Of a stretch of 46,885 nucleotides of DNA, positions 7,704-46,885 are shown piece after piece. The stretch covers positions 1 through 46,885 of the forward strand of contig DYEY01000053.1 in assembly GCA_020725465.1 (NCBI GenBank). The letters run 5' to 3'. Positions within the stretch are counted from its first letter, which is position 1. Each line of letters opens with the position of its first letter. The stretch is from Dethiobacter sp. (GTDB lineage: Bacteria > Bacillota > Dethiobacteria > Dethiobacterales > Dethiobacteraceae). The position numbers and the translations under genes are program-made. Under the pieces are notes generated by a model. The model worked only from the letters and a program-made list of their open reading frames with translations. It was not told the DNA's origin and searched no databases.

Positions 7704-8330
7704 ATGAACTGCTATCTGAGTGAAAGCGGGGTCGACCTGTTAAGGGAAATAGGTAATATCGGGATAGGTAACGCTGTTTCTTCTCTTTCACAGCTGCTGA
7801 ACGACCAACGGATAAATATCCGTATGCCGGAAGTTACCGTAGTTTCATTGGGAGAGCTGCCTGACCAAATGGAAAGCCCGGAAAAGGTGGTTGCCGGCAT
7901 TTATGTGGAAGTGGGCGGGAGTATCGATTTACACATGATTTTCCTGCTGCCGCTGGAAAGCGCCCGCTCTATCACTGCCAGCGTCAGTGGGGGCCTGGTA
8001 CGGGAGCTGGATGAAATGGGCTTGTCCGCCGTAATGGAAGTGGGTAACATTGTTACTGCCGGTTATATTAACGCTTTCGCAGGGCTGACCGGATTCAAAC
8101 TGATCCCCAAACCCCCGGCTGTGGCCGTGGACCTTACTGAGGCTATACTTGGTTCTATTCTGGCCGAGGTGCAGGCGGCTGAAGATTTTGTTATTTTGAT
8201 TAAAACAGGGTTCGAAACCGGGGAATCAGATATTGAAGGTTTCCTGTGTATGATACCGGCGCGGGATTCCTTTGAAATTGTGTATAAAAAGCTGTTAGAA
8301 GGAGCCTCGGATGAGTCTGGTGCGGGTTAG
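7704..8330 (+). CDS. cheC: CheY-P phosphatase CheC
   Basis: The 208-residue product carries the two pseudo-symmetric phosphatase helices of CheC: LLREIGNIGIGNAVSSLSQL near residues 12-31 and VMEVGNIVTAGYINAFAGL near 111-129, each with the essential Glu-x-x-Asn pair. CheC removes phosphate from CheY and binds CheD to tune adaptation. The ATG follows cheY after four bases with TAAGG upstream, and the 3' end overlaps cheD by 20 bases, which fits the known CheC-CheD partnership. At this length it is the dual-site CheC type rather than CheX. Confidence 0.94.
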   Translation: MNCYLSESGVDLLREIGNIGIGNAVSSLSQLLNDQRINIRMPEVTVVSLGELPDQMESPEKVVAGIYVEVGGSIDLHMIFLLPLESARSITASVSGGLVRELDEMGLSAVMEVGNIVTAGYINAFAGLTGFKLIPKPPAVAVDLTEAILGSILAEVQAAEDFVILIKTGFETGESDIEGFLCMIPARDSFEIVYKKLLEGASDESGAG

Positions 8331-37515: not shown

Positions 37516-37757
37516 TAATATGTATGGACGATGACCGGGAAGAGTAAGGTTTGGCCTGACGCCAGAGAAGGGCTTTCAGCGGCTGAAAGAAGCCCCCGTC
37601 CAGGAGACCTGAAAGTGCGCCCCCGAGTCCTGACCCCTGAAATTCCAGTAGGGGGACACGGTGCCGCCGTTACCGGGTTAAGGTGGGGCAAGCTGCTTGC
37701 CCAATCAGGGTGGAACCGCGGGTATAACCGTCTCTGCAAAGAGGCGGTTTAGTTTTT
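37516..37757 (+). promoter_or_regulatory. T-box riboswitch, probably cysteine-specific
   Basis: The leader contains the conserved T-box sequence AGGGTGGAACCGCGGG (37707-37722). An intrinsic terminator follows: AACCGTCTCT / AGAGGCGGTT with a four-base loop, then TTAGTTTTT (37726-37757). Stem I starts near 37535 and has the AGTA of the S-turn at 37543-37546. On its 3' side a TGC triplet at 37616-37618 (after GAAAG) is the best specifier candidate, which would read tRNA-Cys and fits the downstream cysE and cysS. Uncharged tRNA-Cys should favour antitermination. The exact specifier position was placed by eye. Confidence 0.9.
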
Positions 37758-41757: not shown

Positions 41758-41786
41758 TTGACAAAACCGGGCGAGAAAGGTATTAT
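41758..41786 (+). promoter_or_regulatory. promoter of the iron-regulated nitrogenase-like cluster
   Basis: TTGACA (41758-41763), 17 bases, TATTAT (41781-41786). Start is expected near 41793, just upstream of and inside the Fur box, so repressor binding would block initiation or escape. Confidence 0.82.
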
Positions 41787-41797
41787 TATAACAAATG

Positions 41798-41816
41798 AAT
41801 GAGAATGGTTTTCATT
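41798..41816. promoter_or_regulatory. Fur box
   Basis: AATGAGAATGGTTTTCATT is a 19-base dyad with 7 of 9 symmetric pairs. Its core TGAGAAT-G-GTTTTCA matches the Firmicute 7-1-7 Fur motif TGATAAT-N-ATTATCA at 11 of 14 positions. It overlaps the predicted transcription start. Fur with ferrous iron would repress the operon, so expression should rise on iron starvation. Confidence 0.85.
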
Positions 41817-41838
41817 TTCATGCAAGGAGCTGAACCAT

Positions 41839-42114
41839 ATGACCGTTTTACTGGTTGGAGCAGACAGATTGGGTAATATTCCCCATGAACTGAAAAATCA
41901 CGGCTGTACAGAGATTATACACTGGACCGGGCGTAAAGAGCGGACCAGGCCGATTCCGGAAAGGGTCGAAATGGTGCTGGTAATACACGATTTTGTTAAT
42001 CACGGTCTGATGGACAGCGTTAAAACACAGGCCAGGCGCCGCCGCCTGCCCATATTTTTTGCCAAGCGCGGCATAGCCGGACTGAAGCAGGCGCTGGCTG
42101 AACAAGGCCAATAA
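41839..42114 (+). CDS. DUF2325 domain protein
   Basis: The 91-residue protein is a single DUF2325 domain: MTVLLVGADRLGNIPHELKN, a central VEMVLVIHDFVNHGLMDSVK segment, and RLPIFFAKRGIAGLKQAL. The pattern looks like a small Rossmann-like fold in which one face may bind a ligand. DUF2325 genes recur beside nitrogenase-like and metal-related genes, but no function is established. The ATG at 41839 has AAGGAG nine bases upstream and it is the first gene after the Fur box. Confidence 0.88.
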   Translation: MTVLLVGADRLGNIPHELKNHGCTEIIHWTGRKERTRPIPERVEMVLVIHDFVNHGLMDSVKTQARRRRLPIFFAKRGIAGLKQALAEQGQ

Positions 42115-42141
42115 GTTTGCATAAAAATATCGGATAATGGA

Positions 42142-42363
42142 GTGCTGAGTAGTTTGCTAAATGAAAATCATCAAAAGATATTAAAGCAAATATATCACCT
42201 TTATGAATCTCTGTTTCTCCACGATGGTTATGGCGAAATGAAGATAGAAATCAGACTACTCAAAAAAGGGCAAAAAGAGGTTATCATTCATTGTGGTAAG
42301 CAGTATCGTTACGTTGTTGACTTTGTTAAACGGCCGGGTGGTGCGGCAGATCAGTCAGGTTAA
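42142..42363 (+). CDS. unknown 73-residue protein between DUF2325 and nifH-like genes
   Basis: The start is GTG 42142 with only a weak GGATAATGGAG upstream; the frame runs to TAA at 42361-42363. The product is a helix-then-strand protein (LLNENHQKILKQIYHLYESL, then EMKIEIRLLKKGQKEVIIHC and QYRYVVDFVKRP), basic overall, with a single cysteine. I recognise no family. Its place in the Fur-controlled transcript, directly before the attenuator, suggests a role with the NifH-like protein or in control, but this is inference. Confidence 0.6.
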   Translation: MLSSLLNENHQKILKQIYHLYESLFLHDGYGEMKIEIRLLKKGQKEVIIHCGKQYRYVVDFVKRPGGAADQSG

Positions 42364-42390
42364 ACAGAGGTGTTTTAACTGTTGGGTTTG

Positions 42391-42449
42391 GGAAGGCGGT
42401 TCTGTGGGTGAACCCTTCCGGAAAACTTTGTTTCCCGGGGGGGTTTTTT
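42391..42449 (+). promoter_or_regulatory. attenuator-like element before the nifH-like gene
   Basis: Two mutually exclusive hairpins are visible. The downstream one, an intrinsic terminator, pairs 42411-42424 (AACCCTTCCGGAAA) with 42431-42445 (one bulged C, two G-T pairs), followed by TTTT. The upstream one pairs GGAAG and GGTTC (42391-42402) with GAACC and CTTCC (42410-42419), using the 5' arm of the terminator. With no promoter visible between it and the nifH-like ATG, the terminator must be read through or conditional. The ligand or factor is unknown; no B12 box or other named riboswitch signature was seen. Confidence 0.65.
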
Positions 42450-42480
42450 ATTGGCAATTCATTTAGACGGGGGGCAGGGC

Positions 42481-43248
42481 ATGAAAAAAATTGCGATTTA
42501 TGGCAAGGGTGGAATAGGTAAGTCCACCACCACCTCTAATCTCTCTGCAGCGTTATCAGTATTGGGCTATAAAGTTATGCAGATTGGTTGTGACCCCAAA
42601 GCTGATTCCACGAAGAACCTGGTGGGAGGAAAACTGGTGCCCACGGTTCTGGACCGCATCAGGCAGAAAAAAGAAGATATATCCCTGGCGGATATTGTCT
42701 TTAAGGGGTTTAACGGTGTGCTTTGTGTGGAAGCCGGCGGACCTGCTCCCGGTATCGGGTGTGCCGGAAGGGGCATTATTGCGGCCTTTGAAAAGCTTGA
42801 GGAGTTAAAAGCTTTCCAGGTCTACCGGCCGGATGTGGTTATTTATGATGTGCTGGGGGACGTGGTCTGCGGGGGGTTTGCCATGCCAATCAGGGGTGGT
42901 TATGCTGAAGATGTTTTTGTTGTTACTTCCGGGGAAATGATGTCTCTTTATGCCGCCTGCAATATTGCTGCGGCCGTAAATCAGTTTCGCAGCAAGGGTT
43001 ACGCCCGCTTAAAAGGTTTGATTCTAAATGCCAAAGGGGTTGATAACGAGAGGGAATTGGTGGAGAAAACGGCAGGAGAAATCAATACCGAGGTCATTCA
43101 TTGCATACCCCGGGACGGTCATGTACAAAAGGCGGAGAATGAAGGGAAAACAGTGGTGGAAGCTTTTCCCGGTTCAGAAATGGCTAAAGTTTACCTGTCG
43201 CTGGCTGATGCTGTTATGGTAAATAAGGCTCGTTTCCAGGCCTGTTGA
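42481..43248 (+). CDS. NifH-like nitrogenase-superfamily iron-sulfur ATPase
   Basis: The 255-residue protein belongs to the NifH/BchL/CfbC superfamily, which hydrolyses ATP to send electrons to a component-1 partner. It has the deviant Walker [15 protein letters not shown] (residues 7-20), the switch region CDPKADST (37-44), and both cysteines that hold the dimer-bridging [4Fe-4S] cluster: Cys94 (GIGCAGRG) and Cys130 (DVVCGGFA). It is shorter than nitrogenase NifH (about 290), as in divergent group IV members. The ATG at 42481 has GGGGGG at about six bases; a TTG extension to 42451 abuts the terminator. Substrate unknown. Confidence 0.93.
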
Positions 43249-43283
43249 ATAAGAATGCAAACAATGAAAGGAGAGTAAGGCAG

Positions 43284-44228
43284 TTGAAGAAAACACACAC
43301 CTTAATTATTTGGGTTGTATTTTCCCTGATATTGGCAGGTTGTGTCAGTAAAGCCCAACCCGTCAATCCACCCACTGACGAGCAACCAGCCAAATTCCGG
43401 CTGGTTGAATCGGATGGTACAGTCTTTGAAAGGGATGCCGTACCGCAGCGCGTTATTGTTCTTTCTGTACCCATAGCGATCATAATGGATGCCCTGGGTA
43501 TTGAATTGGCAGGTATCACCCAGACATCCCGTCCCCTGCCGCCCAGGTTGGCCGAGTTGCCGCAGGCGGGAGTTCCCAAGGATCCCAATGTGGAAATTAT
43601 CAAATCCCTGACCCCGGATCTGGTGATTATCTCCAAAGATTTCAAGCATATGCACAAGGCTAAAATGGAGCAGCATAATATCCCTGTCTATTATATTGAT
43701 AACCAGCTTTATGAAGATACCTTCAAAAGCATTGAAATTTTTGGCAGGGCTTTTGGCAAGGAAGCAGAGGCAAGTCAACTCATTAAAGACATGAGGGCCA
43801 GGGAAAACCAGGTCCTGAGTGCTGCCAAGGGGAAACCTGCTCCCAAAGTATTGATACTTTTTGGCACCGCGGACTCCTTTACCATGCAGAAAAGCAATAC
43901 CTATGCCGGCAACCTGGTGGCAAAACTGGGTGGGATCAACATTGCAGATGATATTAAGCTGAGTGAGGTTTCAACAGGAAATATTCCGCTTAGCATTGAG
44001 CAGGTAGTGGCAATGAACCCTGATATTATCCTGCGGATTTCCCATGGTAACGCTGAAGAGACTCAAAAAATATACGAGCAGGAATTTGTCAGGAACCCGA
44101 TCTGGAATGCGGTTTCAGCCCAGCAAAACAACAGGGTTTACGACCTGCCGATGCATCTGTTCTTTTCCAACCCTGGCCTGCAGGTCATTGATGCTCTGGA
44201 ACACTTGGCCAAACTGATGTACCCGTAG
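43284..44228 (+). CDS. iron-chelate-type ABC transporter substrate-binding lipoprotein
   Basis: The 314-residue protein has a lipoprotein signal with lipobox L-A-G-Cys20 and a periplasmic-binding domain of the FecB/BtuF class (RVIVLSVPIAIIMDALGIELAGI, then LTPDLVIISKDF, IEQVVAMNPDIILRI, and YDLPMHLF). Ligands of the class include iron siderophores, heme and cobalamin; the actual ligand is not evident. The start is TTG 43284 with AAAGGAG about ten bases upstream, which leaves the signal sequence intact; a longer in-frame start at 43245 lacks one. Flanked by the NifH-like and permease genes in one transcript. Confidence 0.9.
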   Translation: MKKTHTLIIWVVFSLILAGCVSKAQPVNPPTDEQPAKFRLVESDGTVFERDAVPQRVIVLSVPIAIIMDALGIELAGITQTSRPLPPRLAELPQAGVPKDPNVEIIKSLTPDLVIISKDFKHMHKAKMEQHNIPVYYIDNQLYEDTFKSIEIFGRAFGKEAEASQLIKDMRARENQVLSAAKGKPAPKVLILFGTADSFTMQKSNTYAGNLVAKLGGINIADDIKLSEVSTGNIPLSIEQVVAMNPDIILRISHGNAEETQKIYEQEFVRNPIWNAVSAQQNNRVYDLPMHLFFSNPGLQVIDALEHLAKLMYP

Positions 44229-44238
44229 GGGGAGAATA

Positions 44239-45270
44239 ATGCTCACTGGAAAATCCCGGGCAACCTGCAGAGAAGTAAATACGCGCTTAATCAAACGGCT
44301 GATGGTGCTCGTTGCGGCTTTGACCTTACTGGTGACGGCCGGCTTTTTATCCCTGCGGTTTGGCAGCGTCCGGTATGCCACCGCTGATATAATTGGGTCA
44401 TTCCTGGGGGCGGAAGGAAGCACGGCCAAAGTAATAATTATGGATATCAGGCTGCCAAGAACTCTTATTGCCATAATGGTGGGGGCGAACCTGGCCATGT
44501 CCGGCGCCCTGCTCCAGGCGGTGATGCGCAACCCACTGGCCGATCCCGGGTTAACCGGGGTATCGGCCGGTGGTGGCCTGTCAGCGGTGACCATCATGCT
44601 GGTATTCCCCGAAATGACCCGGTATGTGCCCCTGGCCGCCTTTGGTGGCGGCATTGTGGCGGCTTTTATGGTTTATACCCTGGCCTGGAAACGGGGAATA
44701 GACCCTATCAGGATAATTCTGGCCGGGGTGGCGGTAAACGCCATCCTGGGCGGGGGCATATCTCTATTGTCCATTCTCTACAGCGACAGAATTCAGGGTG
44801 TGCTGATGTGGCTAAACGGCAGCATGTCGGCCAAGAGCAGATTTCATGTTAGCATTTTGGCTCCCTATAGTTTTATCGGGCTGATTGCTGCCCTGCTTTG
44901 CATTAACACCGCCAATGTTCTGCAACTGGGGGATGACGCTGCCAAAAGCCTGGGAGTCAGGGTCAATCTGGCCCGTATTCTTCTGTCCATGGTAGCGGCC
45001 TTCCTGGCCGGTATCTCGGTGGCCATGGTGGGATTGATCGGGTTTATCGGCCTTGTGGTGCCGCATATCAGCAGGTTGTTGGTGGGAACCGATTACCGCT
45101 TTATGCTGCCTGTCAGCGCTGTTATCGGCGGCATCTTGCTGACTCTGGCGGACACGGGAGCAAGGACTTTATTTAGCCCGGTGGAACTGCCGGTGGGCAT
45201 TTTAATGGCCATTATCGGGGGACCGTTTTTCCTGTACCTGTTAAGAAAAGGGGGTGCTTACAGGGTATGA
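44239..45270 (+). CDS. FecCD-type ABC transporter permease
   Basis: The 343-residue integral membrane protein shows roughly nine to ten hydrophobic segments from residue 20 on. It has the family motifs RLPRTLIAIMVGANLAMSGA, LQAVMRNPLADPGLTGVSAG, LGVRVNLARI and GLIGFIGLVVPHISRLLVG, the last being the ATPase-coupling region. It imports a metal chelate with the neighbouring lipoprotein and ATPase. The ATG has GGGGGAG at six bases; the stop overlaps the ATPase ATG (ATGA). Confidence 0.95.
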   Translation: MLTGKSRATCREVNTRLIKRLMVLVAALTLLVTAGFLSLRFGSVRYATADIIGSFLGAEGSTAKVIIMDIRLPRTLIAIMVGANLAMSGALLQAVMRNPLADPGLTGVSAGGGLSAVTIMLVFPEMTRYVPLAAFGGGIVAAFMVYTLAWKRGIDPIRIILAGVAVNAILGGGISLLSILYSDRIQGVLMWLNGSMSAKSRFHVSILAPYSFIGLIAALLCINTANVLQLGDDAAKSLGVRVNLARILLSMVAAFLAGISVAMVGLIGFIGLVVPHISRLLVGTDYRFMLPVSAVIGGILLTLADTGARTLFSPVELPVGILMAIIGGPFFLYLLRKGGAYRV

Positions 45271-46052
45271 TCAATGCGTCGGAACTGAAAATCGGTTATG
45301 ACAAAAAAGTGGTCGTTGATGGTTTTGGCTTTAACATCAGGCAGGGAGAAATGGTTTCCCTGATCGGCCCAAACGGCTCTGGGAAATCTACGGTACTCAA
45401 AGTTTTGGCCCGCCTGATGGAGAAAATGGGTGGAGCAGTCCTCCTGGACGGCGCAGACATTCACCGTCTGCCCACCAGGGAGGTGGCCAAAAAACTCTCC
45501 ATTCTCTCGCAGTACAATATTACCCCGCCTGACTTTACTGTGGAAGAACTGGTGAGCTATGGCCGCCTGCCTCACCGTAAAATGTTCCAGTTGGAAAGCA
45601 AGGCTGACCGGGAGATTGTCCGGTGGGCTCTCAGGCAGACCAAGCTGGAAAAACTGGCTAACCGGTTTATCAACAGTCTGTCGGGAGGAGAACGGCAGCG
45701 GGCCTGGATTGCCATGGCATTGGCCCAACAACCCAAGGTCCTTCTGCTGGACGAACCGACTACCTATCTTGATATCAGTCACCAGTTGGAAATCATGGAA
45801 TTGTTGAACACGCTTAACAGGGAACTGGACCTGACAGCGATTATGGTTCTGCACGATCTTAACCAGGCGGTGCGCTACAGCAACAGGCTGATTGTAATCA
45901 AAGAAGGGAAACTGTTCATGGATGGTGCACCCCAGGAAGTACTTACCGCCGAGATGTTAAGAAGTGTCTATAAAGTTGAAGCGGAAGTTACCATAAACAA
46001 GCAAATAGGCAAGCCAATGTTCATGCCCCTGGGCCTTGCTTTTGGCACATAA
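45267..46052 (+). CDS. FecE/BtuD-type ABC transporter ATPase
   Basis: The 261-residue ATPase has Walker A GPNGSGKST (about residues 34-42), a Q-loop in LSQYN, the LSGGERQRAWIA signature, Walker B VLLLDEPTTYLD and the switch His in LHDLNQA. It powers uptake through the adjacent permease. The ATG overlaps the permease stop, so translation is coupled. The next gene, the component-1-like protein, follows after 32 bases. Confidence 0.96.
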   Translation: MINASELKIGYDKKVVVDGFGFNIRQGEMVSLIGPNGSGKSTVLKVLARLMEKMGGAVLLDGADIHRLPTREVAKKLSILSQYNITPPDFTVEELVSYGRLPHRKMFQLESKADREIVRWALRQTKLEKLANRFINSLSGGERQRAWIAMALAQQPKVLLLDEPTTYLDISHQLEIMELLNTLNRELDLTAIMVLHDLNQAVRYSNRLIVIKEGKLFMDGAPQEVLTAEMLRSVYKVEAEVTINKQIGKPMFMPLGLAFGT

Positions 46053-46084
46053 ATCACTTTTTGGATTTTGTGAGGAGGATGACG

Positions 46085-46861
46085 GTGTACAGTTACAGTC
46101 TTGACAGATTAAAAAGGTTGGCAGAGATTGAAACGGACAAGGACATTTTGCAGTTGTCCAACGCCCAGTTTCCCGGTACCCACTGCCCCCTTTTCGGTGT
46201 GGCCTTAACAGCTGGGTATATAAAGGAATTGTATACCATAGTTGTGGGGACTGATGAATGTACTTTTTATACCAAAAATTTTACCATGGAAAGGGCCAAT
46301 GCCACCGGTTCCAGTGACAATCACTTTCTCTCTTTTGCCGTCAACCAGGATGATGTGGTATTTGGCTGTCACGACAAACTGAAAAAAGCAGTGGCTGAAA
46401 TTGACAGGAAGTACGGTCCCAAAGCGATTCTTCTGGTAACAACCTGCGTTATGGAAGTAATAGGCGAGGATTTTGAGGCACTGGTATATTCCCTGCAGAA
46501 CCAGATACAGGCAAAATTAATGGTGGTTCGAGCGGAACACTTTAAATGTCATAATCACATTCCCGGTATTGAACGGACTTTGGAAGCATTGGCAGGCCTG
46601 ATGGAGTATCAGCCGTTACGGGTAAAAACCATTAACATCCTGGGACACCGCTACAATGGAGTGGAAGATACGGAACTGCTGAAGTTACTGGTGCAAAAGG
46701 GGATTGACATTAACCTTGTTATCCCTTCCGCCTGTTCTGTCGATTCCCTGGCCATGGCGCCTGCAGCGGCGCTGAACATTGTTACCGACTTTTCCGCCCT
46801 GCCCCTGGCTGAACAGATGAAAACCAGGTTTAACACCGATTATTACTACAGCGAAAACTAA
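46085..46861 (+). CDS. short nitrogenase component-1-like protein
   Basis: The 258-residue protein resembles the N-terminal and middle domains of NifD/NifK/BchN-type component-1 proteins. PGTHCPLFG carries Cys34 and TTCVMEVIGED carries Cys121, at positions where family members bind their [Fe-S] cluster; Cys59 and Cys95 are extra candidates. The chain ends at YYYSEN, just after the ALPLAEQMKTRFNTDYY segment, where full-length relatives of about 400-450 residues would continue. The GTG at 46085 has AGGAGG six bases upstream; ATG 46079 directly abuts that site. It could be a genuine short subunit, one half of a split protein, or a truncated gene; 24 bases remain in the window. Confidence 0.8.
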   Translation: MYSYSLDRLKRLAEIETDKDILQLSNAQFPGTHCPLFGVALTAGYIKELYTIVVGTDECTFYTKNFTMERANATGSSDNHFLSFAVNQDDVVFGCHDKLKKAVAEIDRKYGPKAILLVTTCVMEVIGEDFEALVYSLQNQIQAKLMVVRAEHFKCHNHIPGIERTLEALAGLMEYQPLRVKTINILGHRYNGVEDTELLKLLVQKGIDINLVIPSACSVDSLAMAPAAALNIVTDFSALPLAEQMKTRFNTDYYYSEN

Positions 46862-46885
46862 AATCTCTCTTTAACAATTCATTCA

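Follow-up and report, generated by a model that had tools for sequence, protein, structure and literature searches.

The window analysed here, the whole stretch of 46,885 nucleotides from Dethiobacter sp. contig DYEY01000053.1, carries a Fur-linked operon in which two small genes, encoding a DUF2325 protein and an uncharacterised protein referred to here as X, precede genes for a NifH-like reductase, an IsdE-like lipoprotein with its permease and ATPase, and a nitrogenase component-1-like subunit (Table 1). A scan of the forward strand from 41787 to 42877 gave no sigma-70-like promoter, so that one transcript from the Fur-box promoter is the simplest reading, in agreement with the initial annotation of this DNA. 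X and the nifH-like gene are separated by 117 bp (42364-42480), and the T run of hairpin 2 ends 31 bases before the ATG at 42481. The component-1-like gene (region 46079-46885) ends after 260 aa, compared with 447 aa in its homologue from the nearest relative (genome G011), and homology is lost just before the contig end; this may reflect the assembly end or a disrupted gene. Elsewhere in the window, a T-box leader (37522-37738) lies 5' of paired serine-acetyltransferase-like and cysS-like genes.

Table 1 Features of the Fur-linked operon and its leader hairpins in the window
Feature	Position	Strand	Evidence
Promoter, sigma-70-type (TTGACA-17-TATTAT)	41758-41786	+	Consensus match 11/12
Fur box	41801-41819	.	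15/19 match to GATAATGATAATCATTATC; 0/100 shuffles reach that score
DUF2325 small protein, first gene of the operon	41839-42114	+	PF10087, E = 2.3e-14
Protein X, 73 aa, uncharacterised	42142-42363	+	Alignment of 14 homologues; no Pfam/NCBIfam family
Hairpin 1 (putative antiterminator/anti-sequestor)	42391-42419	+	R1 covariance match 42388-42422, 54.7 bits; pair counts
Hairpin 1 heptaloop, conserved UGYGGGU	42403-42409	+	Hairpin alignments
Hairpin 2 (predicted intrinsic terminator), U tract 42444-42449	42410-42449	+	Folding
NifH-like reductase, Fer4_NifH	42481-43248	+	Closest models CfbC/NifH, scores under their cut-offs
IsdE-like heme/iron substrate-binding lipoprotein	43284-44228	+	TIGR03659, E = 5.4e-64, under cut-off; PF01497
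FecCD-type permease	44239-45270	+	PF01032
FecE-type ABC ATPase	45267-46052	+	PF00005, FecE model
Nitrogenase component-1-like subunit, shortened near contig end	46079-46861	+	PF00148; homologue in L103 of 447 aa

The two competing hairpins that had been noted before the nifH-like gene are both present. Hairpin 1 (GGAAGG, a CG bulge, GUUC, the loop UGUGGGU, GAAC and CCUUCC) pairs 42391-42396 with 42414-42419 and 42399-42402 with 42410-42413, leaving 42397-42398 as the bulge, and has a folding energy of -12.4 kcal/mol. Hairpin 2 pairs 42410-42421 with 42435-42446 and contains an inner stem (42423-42426/42430-42433), the stretch folding at -23.4 kcal/mol. Segment 42410-42419 is common to both, which makes the structures mutually exclusive. 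The initial annotation had described this overlap as a terminator 5' arm shared with an upstream hairpin; the sharing is borne out, with the correction that in hairpin 1 the same segment forms the 3' arm.

The folding energy of the single sequence does not exceed chance (z = -0.52 for 42340-42480 and -1.12 for the terminator stretch, against shuffles), and the question is therefore decided by comparison across relatives. No Rfam family, known riboswitches and leaders included, was matched at the hairpin in the window at the gathering or a permissive threshold, the latter giving weak chance matches only. Likewise, no known aptamer was detected 5' of the window hairpin, which lies only 28 nt from the X stop codon.

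Conservation of hairpin 1 and its linkage to protein X

In the nearest relative (L010/L103) the gene order is the same and the loop identical, and the inner stem of the terminator is altered on both sides. A pattern search located the core in two further genomes (G002 and G022), again after X, with other genes downstream. Alignment of the four Dethiobacteria loci revealed 25 invariant columns among the 27 of the hairpin, compared with about 15 of 90 flanking columns, and the reversed 17-nt core had no match in 100 genomes. Profile searches with X then added G387, G408, G294 and G313, followed by G519, G515, G492, G546 and G511, and finally G585, and at every one of these added loci the hairpin lies 3' of X.

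A covariance model (R1) built from 10 hairpin loci, the window locus included, scored 37.7-54.8 bits (E <= 1e-9) on the 14 linked loci, four of which were outside the model-building set. All 14 have an X homologue 5' of the hairpin and the hairpin in the same orientation, starting 16-415 nt 3' of X; the distance from the X stop codon is 16-36 nt in loci with heme-type downstream genes and reaches 415 nt in those of the pilus type. Pairing within hairpin 1 is maintained at 96.4%, and the loop reads UGYGGGU in nearly all loci. Compensatory changes occur at two pairs, and the remaining pairs hardly vary, so covariation is limited. The alternative pairing, whose absence from relatives would have spoken against an attenuator, is conserved in these 14 loci from several families, and in 13 of them the shared arm pairs downstream with a predicted probability of at least 0.86. 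From these alignments, hairpin 1 is a conserved, putatively regulatory element that recurs in distant bacteria, not a one-off structure.

R1 had no credible match in 79 other loci around nifH-like genes, indicating that the hairpin goes with X and not with nifH, and ruling it out as a general feature of nifH-like operons. Motif matches in acs-like coding sequence (G004, G013, G017 and G022:1087148) and in G041 were set aside as coding coincidences, as were weaker R1 matches in the phylum sample (G403 and G240), which lie inside coding genes.

Co-occurrence of hairpin and X was evaluated in three samples that overlap in part. In the phylum sample of 398 genomes, hairpins at E < 1e-8 occur in exactly the seven genomes with a strong X (Fisher 3e-15, a value that ignores relatedness); among 113 genomes of the class of G294, hairpin matches occur in the eight X genomes and in G523; and in the window's own class, in four of the five X genomes. 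Searched one by one, 13 X genomes each gave exactly one strong R1 match, and G003 gave none: its orphan X (L112:8146-8373) has a marginal Fur box and neither a hairpin nor an iron operon behind it. The converse case is G523 (72% complete), where no X was detected and two hairpin-terminators are found (L162:5700-5734 and 7740-7774). One of these follows FeoA-like, DUF2325-like and zinc-ribbon-like genes and precedes a Fur-box-like site and a DUF3793-like gene, and the other precedes a gene for an FN3-like protein. The linkage to X and the recurrence in unrelated operons are additions to what the initial annotation had described.

X is approximately 65 residues long across homologues, and 18 positions, a His and a Cys among them, are invariant in the alignment of 14 sequences. 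With dN of 0.08-0.25 and dS mostly saturated, X is, judged by its substitution pattern, a real protein under evidently strong purifying selection. It has no credible match in Pfam or NCBIfam, RNA-binding families included, and no PDB match by sequence; a relationship to HemP or DUF2292 was ruled out for want of a profile match. AlphaFold2 predicts an alpha-beta-beta-beta fold of one helix and three strands (pLDDT 73) that has no convincing neighbour among solved structures, and weak matches to dsRBD/SRP14-like alpha-beta-beta-beta folds are a lead only. The open-access literature searched yielded no earlier description of the motif or of X.

Downstream genes and output platforms

The genes behind the hairpin differ between loci. 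NEAT, sortase and nifH-like genes follow in G022 (L106), and in G002 genes for ExbB, DUF2149, a membrane protein and an HmuS-like member of the CobN family. In G387, presumably Candidatus Desulforudis audaxviator, a transposase-like gene lies between the hairpin and ExbB-DUF2149-CobN-like genes (L122, after 5100), and the remaining downstream type is a prepilin with a type IV pilus operon. The Fur-linked nifH-like operon, with its NEAT, sortase and IsdE-like genes (L106; window 42481-46861), suggests a role for the nitrogenase-like enzyme in the use of heme or tetrapyrroles. A heme theme for the non-pilus loci is plausible, since HmuS, a CobN-related de-chelatase, is described as removing iron from heme in gut bacteria (PMC12583661). 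Fur boxes of at least 15/19 were detected in seven of the 14 X loci and one more, by eye only, in G011, and five loci have no clear Fur box.

The second structure comes in two forms. A U tract follows the second stem in eight loci, making it a terminator, and in five others (G408, G313, G546, G519 and G585) the 3' arm is a purine-rich Shine-Dalgarno (SD)-like sequence immediately 5' of the pilin start. G511, with a short GGAG arm and a weak second structure (P = 0.49), is a possible sixth locus of the latter form.

Additional hairpins with GYGGG pentaloops lie between X and the attenuator in leaders of the pilus type and of G387 (L122, L123, L124, L131, L132, L133 and L134). A scan devised after the motif had been seen counted 12 such extra hairpins in long pilus leaders, compared with 0.65 expected from shuffles and none in the reversed sequence, which suggests that they are repeated binding sites. 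Two pilus leaders also contain c-di-GMP riboswitches between X and the hairpin, of type c-di-GMP-II-GAG (L125:2290-2380) and c-di-GMP-I (L134:12112-12196). On the basis of genome length, two cultured type strains, Desulfotomaculum ruminis (PMC3569383) and D. acetoxidans (PMC3035247), appear to carry the element.

Proposed mechanism and alternatives

Sequence comparison and folding demonstrate exclusive structures, a conserved hairpin 1, swapped platforms and linkage to X, and we propose, with a probability of roughly 60%, that the element is a protein-dependent ON attenuator with X as its most likely binder. X is the best candidate for binding the hairpin based on genomic linkage; we infer this binding, the ON direction and the iron/heme signal. 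Hairpin 1 is nearly unchanged while terminator and SD platforms swap around it, which points to hairpin 1 as the sensed element of an ON switch. Scarce iron would lift Fur repression and allow the first small genes, including X, to be transcribed. In the resulting leader, hairpin 1 and the terminator would compete for the shared CCCUUC arm; in some relatives the competitor would instead be an SD-hiding hairpin. A trans-acting factor, most likely X, would recognise the bulged hairpin with its UGYGGGU loop and stabilise it, so that transcription or translation could proceed into the heme/iron-uptake or pilus genes. A trans-acting binder, probably X, that brings about antitermination or SD release is the likeliest mechanism. 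Here X would impose a second condition after Fur, perhaps through its own concentration or through a bound metal or heme, the latter conceivable because of the invariant His and Cys. The second control layer on top of Fur that the initial annotation had predicted stands, since 14 loci preserve the alternative pairing and no internal promoter was seen.

We consider unlikely, if far from negligible, a genuine switch whose hairpin 1 is read by some other conserved factor of the cell, either RNA polymerase/NusA itself or an RNA-binding protein, with X simply a co-regulated product of the operon. The hairpin-terminators of G523, the lone X of G003 and the missing RNA-binding family match would all fit such a factor. 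However, the G523 genome is only 72% complete, and the strong hairpins sit in X genomes, adjoining X at all 14 linked loci despite differing downstream genes. Direct sensing of a small ligand or metal by hairpin 1 or the whole leader, as a minimal riboswitch, is improbable: a near-invariant loop and bulge combined with a swap between terminator and SD platforms is typical of riboswitch elements, but the conserved part is a lone hairpin of ~27 nt, beyond which the heme-type leaders have no structure in common, it matches no Rfam family, and its linkage to X would be left without explanation.

Even less probable is passive attenuation, in which a partial terminator fixes the ratio of DUF2325/X to the remaining genes and nothing binds hairpin 1. 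The terminator is strong, and partial read-through could arise from hairpin 1 alone if it folds first; however, this does not account for a loop and bulge that stay near-invariant across loci saturated at silent sites, nor for why hairpin 1 is kept in loci that work by SD masking. The fixed expression ratio that the initial annotation had offered as its second option fits poorly for the same reasons. We give least credence to translation-coupled attenuation, in which the position of the ribosome on the X frame selects the hairpin. It would explain why X is upstream in 14/14 linked loci, with its stop codon so close to hairpin 1 in heme-type loci, but the far longer spacing in pilus loci and the conservation of X at the protein level, not in runs of codons, argue against it.

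Returning to the protein-dependent attenuator, a more specific version can be put forward tentatively, and we would not bet on it as a whole. In this version X would be the founding member of a family of RNA-binding antiterminators, ~65 residues long, that recognise bulged hairpins with GYGGG loops. A bound metal or heme would let these proteins impose a further check, after Fur, on heme-uptake, nitrogenase-like and type IV pilus operons, with antitermination at some loci and SD release at others. If true, bacterial attenuation would gain an RNA motif and a protein family that appear to be undescribed and match nothing in Rfam, Pfam or NCBIfam, and iron status in anaerobes would be tied to heme capture, to a nitrogenase-like enzyme without an assigned substrate and to type IV pili. 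The small protein and its 30-nt RNA would then make a concrete, testable pair.

Comparison with known systems

The element would work like RAT or ANTAR systems but falls outside both by the features that define them. In the BglG/SacY/LicT family, an imperfect RAT hairpin of ~30 nt overlaps the 5' arm of a terminator, and a protein whose gene is often part of the operon stabilises it to give read-through. The element described here is likewise an imperfect hairpin of ~30 nt overlapping the 5' arm of an intrinsic terminator, and its sequence appears to differ from that of RAT. Unlike these proteins, X has only ~65 aa and no Pfam match to CAT or PRD domains, and the element is also found with SD masking and has Fur-linked heme/iron and pilus operons as its putative targets. 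As an example of the BglG/SacY family, NagY is described as regulating the nagY-nagE operon (PMC9981650).

Similar to clostridial c-di-GMP riboswitches, the element would place type IV pilus genes under leader RNA control. However, the hairpin is separate from the aptamers, and other loci, including the window, have the hairpin without a detected aptamer. ANTAR sites of the NasR/EutV class consist of two hairpins whose hexaloops have A1 and G4. Measured against this definition, the element has a single bulged hairpin with a 7-nt UGYGGGU loop instead of tandem A1/G4 hexaloops, and neither X nor the other genes of the operon match the ANTAR domain model. The hairpin resembles iron-responsive elements in its 5' bulge, short upper stem, fixed loop and iron-related transcripts, but its loop is UGYGGGU in nearly all loci, whereas that of iron-responsive elements is CAGUGN. 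What it shares with attenuators in general is an exclusive antiterminator and terminator with a common arm, as predicted by folding (P >= 0.86) at the eight U-tract loci, and an antiterminator conserved under selection across species.
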